DNA from: Candidatus Omnitrophota bacterium | Lineage (GTDB): Bacteria; Omnitrophota; Gorgyraeia; JABMRN01; RBG-13-46-9 | Reading direction: 5' to 3' | Length of the DNA: 34,900 bases | Assembly (NCBI GenBank): GCA_016782425.1 | Contig: JADHYN010000011.1 | Span: 1-34,900, forward strand | Shown here: piece after piece, positions 26,137-34,900 of the stretch | Numbering within the stretch: the stretch's first letter is position 1 | Layout of the letters: each line of letters opens with the position of its first letter | Program-made: the position numbers and the translations under genes | The notes under the pieces: generated by a model | What the model was told of the DNA's origin: nothing | Databases searched by the model: none | Seen by the model: the letters and a program-made list of their open reading frames with translations, nothing else

Positions 26137-26155
26137 GTGCAGGAGCCTCTGTTAT

Positions 26156-26190
26156 TGTGCCAAGCCGCAGGCTAATACCCTCTCATTTCG
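26156..26190 (+). repeat. Solo copy of the AATACCCTCTCATTCCG repeat
   Basis: TGTGCCAAGCCGCAGGCTAATACCCTCTCATTTCG; related to 24327-24361 (inverted), 25869-25898, 33869-33899 and 147-176. Confidence 0.75.
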
Positions 26191-26204
26191 TCTGCTTCTT
26201 ATAC

Positions 26205-33393: not shown

Positions 33394-33466
33394 GCCGAGG
33401 TAGCTCAGTTGGTAGAGCAGGGGTTTTGTAAACCTCAGGTCGCTGGTTCGACTCCAGTCCTCGGCT
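33394..33466 (+). tRNA. tRNA-Thr(UGU); CCA not encoded
   Basis: Acceptor GCCGAGG/CCTCGGC, anticodon arm GGGGT-TTTGTAA-ACCTC, T-arm GCTGG-TTCGACT-CCAGT. Confidence 0.95.
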
Positions 33467-33479
33467 CTGATACAATTTT

Positions 33480-33562
33480 GGGGAGATGGCGGAGTAGTCA
33501 AACGCACCAGACTGTAAATCTGGCGGCTTCGGCCTACGAAGGTGCGAATCCTTCTCTCCCCA
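33480..33562 (+). tRNA. tRNA-Tyr(GUA), long variable arm
   Basis: Acceptor GGGGAGA/TCTCCCC, anticodon arm CAGACTGTAAATCTG, variable arm GGCTTCGGCC, T-arm GAAGG-TGCGAAT-CCTTC. Confidence 0.95.
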
Positions 33563-33567
33563 CTTTT

Positions 33568-33663
33568 CCGAAGGACCTTTGGTCCGCTGAGGGATCACTT
33601 CCGAAGGACCTTTCTTTTCCATCGCCGAAGGACCTTTCCGAAGGACCTTTTCGAAGTACCTTT
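33568..33663 (+). repeat. Imperfect repeats of CCGAAGGACCTTT between tRNA-Tyr and tRNA-Gly
   Basis: Exact copies at 33568-33580, 33601-33613, 33625-33637, 33638-33650; degenerate TCGAAGTACCTTT at 33651-33663. Confidence 0.9.
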
Positions 33664-33666
33664 TCC

Positions 33667-33740
33667 GCGGGAGTAGTTCAATGGTAGAACGGTAGCCTTC
33701 CAAGCTACACACGACGGTTCGATTCCGTTCTCCCGCTCCA
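33667..33740 (+). tRNA. tRNA-Gly(UCC); CCA encoded
   Basis: Acceptor GCGGGAG/CTCCCGC, anticodon arm GTAGC-CTTCCAA-GCTAC, 3' TCCA. Confidence 0.95.
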
Positions 33741-33792
33741 ATTCGAACTCGTTTTGCCCACCATTTTCGACTTATAAAAAAATCGCATGAAC

Positions 33793-33899
33793 TGACGAAG
33801 TGAGAGAGGGGCTCCTTCTATTTTTTCGAGTGATATTGATACAGCCTCGGCATAAAGCCTCTGTTATCGCCAAGCCTCACGCAATACCCTCTCATTCCG
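33793..33899. repeat. Hairpin-forming repeat within the tRNA-operon insertion
   Basis: TGAGAGAGGG (33801-33810) pairs with CCCTCTCA (33887-33894); right end GCCAAGCCTCACGCAATACCCTCTCATTCCG matches the repeat family. Confidence 0.6.
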
Positions 33900-33969
33900 T
33901 AGGTTTTCATCCCATTTTTGGCCCGTTTTCGGACCTCAAAAAAAAAGTTGAAAAAAGTTAAAAAAACTC

Positions 33970-33997
33970 TTGACAAATACTTTCGATATGGTATATT
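33970..33997 (+). promoter_or_regulatory. Candidate promoter for the inserted HTH/LAGLIDADG-like ORF
   Basis: TTGACA-16 nt-TATATT, about 50 nt upstream of the ATG at 34049. Confidence 0.5.
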
Positions 33998-34048
33998 TAG
34001 ACCTTTGTCAGCCCAACGTCCGAGCTTCGCCTACAGAAAGGCATAAAG

Positions 34049-34720
34049 ATGCAAGTTTGCGAGATTATAACGAGTTACAAAAAAGGAAATTCCGTTAAAG
34101 AAATAGCGGCAAAGGCCGGCCTATCGACGAGAATTATACGGGGAATATTATCAAAAAATAATATAACATTTAGAACTCATAAAGAAGCTGCTTATATCAA
34201 AAATAATAGATTTGGCGACCCATTTGACATACTAACAAACCTCACCCCTGAAGAGGAACATTTGAAGGCAATGGCACTCGGCCTTTACCTTACCGAAGGA
34301 AATACAAAAAACAAAAATTCAATCCGTTTTTCAAATTCAAACCCTGCGCTTGTGAAAATTTTTGTTAAATTTTTAAAAGTAGTATGCGGCGTTGAAAACG
34401 ACAAGATAAAAATGTCTTTATTTGTATACCCCGATGCTCCCAAGAGAAAAGCAAAAGATTACTGGACAAGTTTCCTAGGCCTCCCCGCAACACAATTCAC
34501 GAAAACAACCGTTTTAAAAAATCGAAATCACCATAGTTCAAAAAAACATTCCGAATTCGGAACCATCACGATAAACGTACACAACACAAAGTTGTTAGAC
34601 ATTATAAAGGAATGGGCCAGGGAATATGCCCATGTAGCTCAGCTGGTAGAGCACATCCATGGTAAGGATGGGGTCGCCGGTTCGATTCCGGCCGTGGGCT
34701 CTGCTATTACCGGGAAATAA
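34049..34720 (+). CDS. Putative HTH protein with LAGLIDADG-endonuclease-like region; reading frame runs through the downstream tRNA-Thr
   Basis: N-terminal HTH 'GNSVKEIAAKAGLSTRIIRGILSKNNI'; 'LKAMALGLYLTEGNTKNKNSIRFSNSNPALVKIFVKFLK'; last ~30 codons are the tRNA gene read in frame. Confidence 0.6.
   Translation: MQVCEIITSYKKGNSVKEIAAKAGLSTRIIRGILSKNNITFRTHKEAAYIKNNRFGDPFDILTNLTPEEEHLKAMALGLYLTEGNTKNKNSIRFSNSNPALVKIFVKFLKVVCGVENDKIKMSLFVYPDAPKRKAKDYWTSFLGLPATQFTKTTVLKNRNHHSSKKHSEFGTITINVHNTKLLDIIKEWAREYAHVAQLVEHIHGKDGVAGSIPAVGSAITGK
34628..34700 (+). tRNA. tRNA-Thr(GGU); CCA not encoded
   Basis: Acceptor GCCCATG/CGTGGGC, anticodon arm CATCC-ATGGTAA-GGATG, T-arm GCCGG-TTCGATT-CCGGC. Confidence 0.95.
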
Positions 34721-34768
34721 ACCTTTTATTAACAAAAGCCTGCCGCGGTGGCGGGTAGGGAGGGAAAA

Positions 34769-34900
34769 ATGGCTAAGGCAAAATTTGAGCGCACAAAGCC
34801 ACATATAAACGTAGGGACAATAGGACACATTGACCACGGTAAGACCTGTCTTACCAGCGCAATAACAAACGTCCTGGCAAGAGAAGGTAAAGCCGAAGCA
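34769..34900 (+). CDS. tuf: Elongation factor Tu, 5' part, truncated by the window end
   Basis: ATG at 34769: [44 protein letters not shown]. Confidence 0.95.

Follow-up and report, generated by a model that had tools for sequence, protein, structure and literature searches.

The open reading frame (ORF) located between tRNA-Gly(UCC) and tRNA-Thr(GGU) in the 34,900-nt stretch of Candidatus Omnitrophota DNA analysed here (the window) belongs to a phylum-wide protein family. Judging from sequence comparisons, we consider it fairly likely that the members of this family are chromosomal, free-standing homing endonucleases, each dedicated to one tRNA gene, and that the host allele of that tRNA is immunised by base changes or by an intron. 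The relevant features of the window are the following.

33394-33467 (+), tRNA-Thr(UGU) (= TGT), called by ARAGORN and Rfam RF00005
33480-33563 (+), tRNA-Tyr(GUA), carrying neither intron nor ORF and lying 12 nt past tRNA-Thr(UGU), called by ARAGORN and Rfam
33667-33740 (+), tRNA-Gly(UCC), called by ARAGORN and Rfam
33741-34048 (+), spacer 5' of the ORF
33860-33905 (+), copy of a dispersed intergenic repeat, with a second window copy at 26144-26191
33970-33997 (+), sigma-70-type promoter, TTGACA-N16-TATATT, 11/12 matches
34049-34627 (+), ORF, codons 1-193, encoding an HTH and LAGLIDADG-like protein, a putative tRNA-Thr(GGU)-specific homing endonuclease
34055-34156 (+), N-terminal helix-turn-helix (HTH), residues 3-36, from Pfam HTH matches and AF2 helices
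34271-34300 (+), single LAGLIDADG-type motif, residues 75-84, MALGLYLTEG, with acidic E83, from the hhalign match with I-DmoI (its second motif) and the family alignment
34628-34720 (+), in-frame 3' extension of the ORF through tRNA-Thr(GGU) to a TAA stop (AHVAQLVEHIHGKDGVAGSIPAVGSAITGK)
34628-34701 (+), tRNA-Thr(GGU), the proposed target and immune allele, called by ARAGORN and Rfam
34659 (+), A at anticodon-loop position 32 of tRNA-Thr(GGU), where 129 of the 143 ORF-less Omnitrophota scored have T
34769-34900 (+), 5' part of tuf (EF-Tu), truncated by the window end

The order tRNA-Thr(UGU)-Tyr-Gly-Thr(GGU)-tuf given in the original prediction was borne out by ARAGORN and Rfam. The prediction had also placed about 890 nt with an ORF between tRNA-Gly and tRNA-Thr(GGU); the gap measures 887 nt (33741-34627), and the whole ORF spans 34049-34720 (223 aa). 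In ORF-less members of the class, the corresponding gap is 126-415 nt, and about 820 nt in one. The promoter that had been proposed within this gap proved to be conserved in relatives. Because the same promoter type is also found upstream of ORF-less Thr-tuf units, the ORF probably lies between the native promoter and tRNA-Thr, and the element at 33970-33997 is probably thrT-tuf's own promoter, with the ORF now downstream of it. As for the hairpin repeat suggested for the spacer, the repeat is real but the hairpin is weak: when two pieces of the spacer were folded, neither stood out clearly from shuffled sequences (z +1.6 and -1.6). The repeat (AAGCCKCACGCCAATACCCTCTCATTCCGT) has about ten copies in the genome, one of them a little 5' of tRNA-Met. 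Short CCGAAGGACCTTT repeats were also observed at 33564-33666, between tRNA-Tyr and tRNA-Gly, and words resembling them occur in the same operon of another genome (G004, L226).

Analysis of the protein supported both domains that had been assigned to it. Pfam HTH models matched the N-terminus (best E-value 1e-6 among 28 members). Each chain carries one LAGLIDADG motif, and the acidic residue equivalent to E83 is nearly invariant across the family. When the 98-member family profile was compared with I-DmoI by using hhalign, it matched exactly the second LAGLIDADG motif of that enzyme (E 1.9e-4), with motif, strand and helix aligned; 12 shuffled controls all gave values of 0.046 or worse. I-DmoI, the sequence of which was confirmed against PDB 1b24, was picked after the resemblance had been noticed, and the match is therefore taken as support rather than as proof. 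A first AF2 model from the single sequence was too poor and was replaced by one built from an 11-sequence alignment (pLDDT 88). Foldseek analysis against BFVD placed viral LAGLIDADG/homing endonucleases among the best matches, all weak (TM-scores 0.25-0.47); Foldseek analysis against PDB returned no endonuclease and nothing convincing, and the PDB sequence and fold searches together yielded solely HTH proteins or low-TM folds. The family thereby differs from the known one-motif (I-CreI type) and two-motif (I-DmoI) LAGLIDADG enzymes in its extra N-terminal HTH, in the lack of any LAGLIDADG match in Pfam and NCBIfam searches, in the lack of a match between its profile and I-CreI, and in having no established PDB fold match. 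The ORF product probably cuts DNA.

Homologues of the ORF were detected in 23 of 59 relatives and in 57 of the 285 genomes of the phylum; the relatives used by name are all Candidatus Omnitrophota, and the scan of named genomes covered close relatives. The ORF, initially regarded as unusual in its setting, is one of about 98 homologues detected rather than unique. Eighty-six of the 98 homologues adjoin a tRNA gene on the same strand, mostly within about 45 nt, and among the remaining 12, two are at contig ends where a tRNA would be expected and ten are without assignment. With the ORF upstream, the tRNA partners are Thr(GGT), Tyr, Val(TAC), Pro(CGG), Glu(CTC), Gly(GCC), Lys(CTT), Ala(GGC), Leu(CAA) and Ser(TGA, GGA); with the ORF downstream, they are Val(GAC), Pro(TGG) and Arg(CCT). 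The genes lie outside introns and inteins, beside the tRNA gene that would be their target. Moreover, the family tree sorts almost perfectly by isoacceptor: it requires 23 switches between tRNA types, where 19 is the lowest possible number and shuffled labels average 76. This is the pattern that would be expected of site-specific elements. Searches of viral contigs and phage records yielded no homologue, and thus no phage vehicle was found; a literature search yielded no description of this family.

The original suspicion of a selfish DNA-cutting gene stands in spirit, with homologues beside many tRNAs in a patchy distribution, and is not supported with respect to mobility of the window copy. 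When the insertion reading was tested on close relatives, the Thr(GGT)-type ORF was present, at 70-79% identity, in all seven members of the window's GTDB family in which the site could be read (counting the window; one of the six others is a closed chromosome), which indicates that this type is old. Pairwise dN/dS within the family was 0.05-0.16 (pairs with unsaturated synonymous sites), indicative of strong purifying selection and hence of a maintained protein. Recurring in the six other family members and with its ORF under such selection, the arrangement is unlikely to be a chance one. By these comparisons, the window copy is an old, vertically inherited gene and not a recent insertion in this genome. 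Comparison of RpoB and ORF trees revealed weak conflict (AU p 0.039 for Val-GAC and 0.069 for Val-TAC), and AU tests for horizontal transfer, most of them non-significant, gave no conflict for the Tyr or Thr types. As a separate observation, rpoB of one of the genomes (G259:C30:16789 onward) lies within a 2504-aa open frame, possibly an rpoB-rpoC fusion.

This conservation counts against the homing reading, given that fixed homing genes are expected to decay, yet the window copy is universal in readable family members and under purifying selection. It is also the main point in favour of a domesticated homing-endonuclease descendant that now regulates the tRNA/tuf transcription unit. WhiA, an HTH and LAGLIDADG protein without nuclease activity, acts as a regulator, and both the HTH domain and the location of the ORF between a promoter and tRNA-Thr-tuf would suit such a role. 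Nonetheless, we regard a regulator as unlikely: the ORF is patchy at the Tyr site even inside one family, most genomes are without any copy, the acidic motif residue is retained almost throughout the family, and the altered anticodon arms and introns described below would be unexpected.

The tRNA-Tyr site of the same operon presents the family in several states. In nine of 12 ORF-linked tRNA-Tyr genes, position 36 is followed by a group I intron (the G002 intron, broken by an assembly gap, was read by eye), and Tyr introns without the ORF are common (13 in a 30-locus sample). An ORF-less group I intron at the target is an arrangement present for most Tyr types and absent for the Thr(GGU) type of the window. 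The site is empty (12-13 nt) in the window genome (G000) and in G003, whereas the sister genera G001 (about 600 nt) and G006 have a paralogous ORF there together with a group I intron; it holds a stop-interrupted ORF in G002 and an intron alone in G007. The window's tRNA-Tyr locus thus represents the unoccupied state of the site filled by ORF and intron in G001 and G006. In G005 (L227:1160-1590), a tRNA-Tyr 5' half is broken exactly at the group I intron point and is followed by a 74-aa GIY-YIG ORF (Pfam PF01541, E 1.6e-6) and then by a complete tRNA-Tyr; this arrangement is the trace left by a break in the anticodon loop. The GIY-YIG ORF represents another endonuclease family at the same tRNA-Tyr site. 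At two loci (L028 and L050), the ORF is flanked by duplicated pieces of its own tRNA. Group I introns were detected in 149 of the 285 Omnitrophota genomes, and those looked at were in tRNA genes for Tyr, Asn, Thr, Lys, Ser, Asp, Ala and Met.

LAGLIDADG proteins can act as maturases, and Tyr-type ORFs adjoin group I introns; base 32, moreover, is within the tRNA loop itself. The family might accordingly work on RNA, either as a maturase for tRNA group I introns or as a nuclease or binder of anticodon-loop RNA with a linked immune tRNA allele. We judge this to be improbable. A search of the window's genome (82% complete) detected no group I intron and none is present in tRNA-Thr(GGU), the 13 Tyr introns without an ORF speak against this reading, and the HTH points to DNA. 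In addition, the tRNA-Thr(GGU) found in this genome has A32 and no other form of it was seen, so that an anticodon nuclease would be without a target.

Anticodon arms of the linked tRNAs were compared with those of ORF-less control tRNAs, which were surveyed for Thr(GGT) and Val only. All ten ORF-linked Thr(GGT) anticodon loops read ATGGTAA (A32), and all 15 ORF-less loops first examined read TTGGTAA (T32). Phylum-wide, A32 was present in 21 genomes and T32 in 129; the ORF was found at Thr(GGT) in 7 of the 21 and in 0 of the 129, respectively (Fisher p 4e-7, uncorrected for kinship). A32 carriers with the ORF span families f1, f2, f4 and f21, and within f2, G009 has both the ORF and A32, and G008 has no ORF and T32. 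Because 14 A32 genomes are without the ORF, A32 could precede it. One of these ORF-less A32 genomes, G249, closely resembles the carrier G259 in the sequence that begins 3 nt 5' of the tRNA and differs from it upstream of that point, a pattern that fits either A32 having come first or an ORF that was lost once protection was in place. For Val(GAC), arms with A31-T39, A32 or C33 were found in 7 of 11 ORF-linked genes versus 0 of 66 ORF-less genes; the other four carriers have ordinary arms. C33 was observed in both ORF-linked tRNA-Val(GAC) genes of L052 (G226) and L176 (G184), at a position where U33 is nearly universal. In the Ala(GGC) types, A32 was not counted as a signal, since A32-U38 is the usual state of that tRNA. 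In the two branches tested, the altered anticodon arms look like protection against cutting. That the ORF is an ordinary intergenic gene, with tRNA adjacency and A32 reflecting shared ancestry of a few lineages, would agree with the seemingly vertical inheritance throughout the window's family and with p-values inflated by kinship, but it was already disfavoured and is very improbable, since independent isoacceptor clades all adjoin tRNAs, A32 accompanies the ORF across all four of those families, and Val(GAC), a separate clade, repeats the anticodon-arm effect.

The ORF also reads into its tRNA. The last base of codon 193 (34627) directly precedes G1 of tRNA-Thr(GGU), no stop intervenes, and the final 30 codons and the stop lie inside and just beyond the tRNA. 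The original prediction had noted neither this overlap nor the anticodon arm of the tRNA as the likely target. Nine of ten Thr(GGU) loci use the same frame without a stop ahead of the tRNA. In the ORF of L016, which terminates in SYIAQIVER ahead of a complete tRNA, these residues are likely a decayed copy of the tRNA-encoded AHVAQLVEH. Reading into the tRNA was ruled out as a general rule of the family, as Tyr types use two frames or stop earlier. More speculatively, RNase P cleavage at the tRNA 5' end would leave an ORF transcript without a stop codon and might thus limit expression.

In the homing reading that we favour, an uninvaded tRNA-Thr(GGU) gene would be recognised and cut by the protein in the DNA of its anticodon arm, and repair from the carrier would copy the ORF plus the adjoining tRNA half. 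The carrier's own tRNA would remain uncut because its anticodon arm is altered, the candidate protective states being A32 in Thr(GGU), A31-T39, A32 or C33 in many Val genes, and the group I intron in most Tyr genes. A fuller version, in which one endonuclease lineage per isoacceptor drove the anticodon-arm changes (A32 in Thr(GGU); C33 or A31-T39 in Val(GAC)), cooperates with tRNA-Tyr group I introns and uses the tRNA as its coding 3' end, is put forward tentatively, as somewhat less than an even chance.

Among known systems, SegB of T-even phages is the closest in kind (PMC13096335, PMC2988022). The passages of these papers that deal with SegB describe a free-standing GIY-YIG homing endonuclease, encoded in a phage tRNA cluster, that cuts within DNA containing tRNAs and so drives the tRNA region's inheritance, with homologues often beside tRNAs (Brok-Volchanskaya 2008, via PMC2988022; PMC13096335). 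Like SegB, the present family would consist of free-standing endonuclease genes among tRNA genes; unlike SegB, it represents another nuclease family and occupies a chromosomal core operon rather than a phage, and the same passages mention no isoacceptor-specific clades, protective anticodon-arm alleles or introns. The Tyr type is reminiscent of collaborative (trans) homing, as in phage mobE and similar systems (PMC3984707, PMC2988022). Those systems, however, involve phage protein-coding genes, whereas bacterial tRNA genes would be cut here, and the window's Thr type is without an intron. The endonuclease of the bacterial tRNA-fMet intron is of another nuclease family and is encoded inside its intron, whereas the ORFs described here are outside the tRNA. 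As outlined in PMC3984707, such intron-encoded endonucleases of bacterial tRNA introns, tRNA-fMet among them, likewise target the anticodon region.

If the homing reading is true, the translation machinery would be directly exposed to a selfish force, exerted by homing genes in bacterial tRNA genes that are essential and mostly single-copy. With this family, it becomes testable how an endonuclease coexists with its own target, through a base change in the strongly constrained anticodon loop or through a self-splicing intron, and because there is one clade per tRNA within one phylum, it offers natural replicate experiments. The family also suggests that genetic parasites can leave scars in the form of unusual bases in anticodon arms, C33 included.
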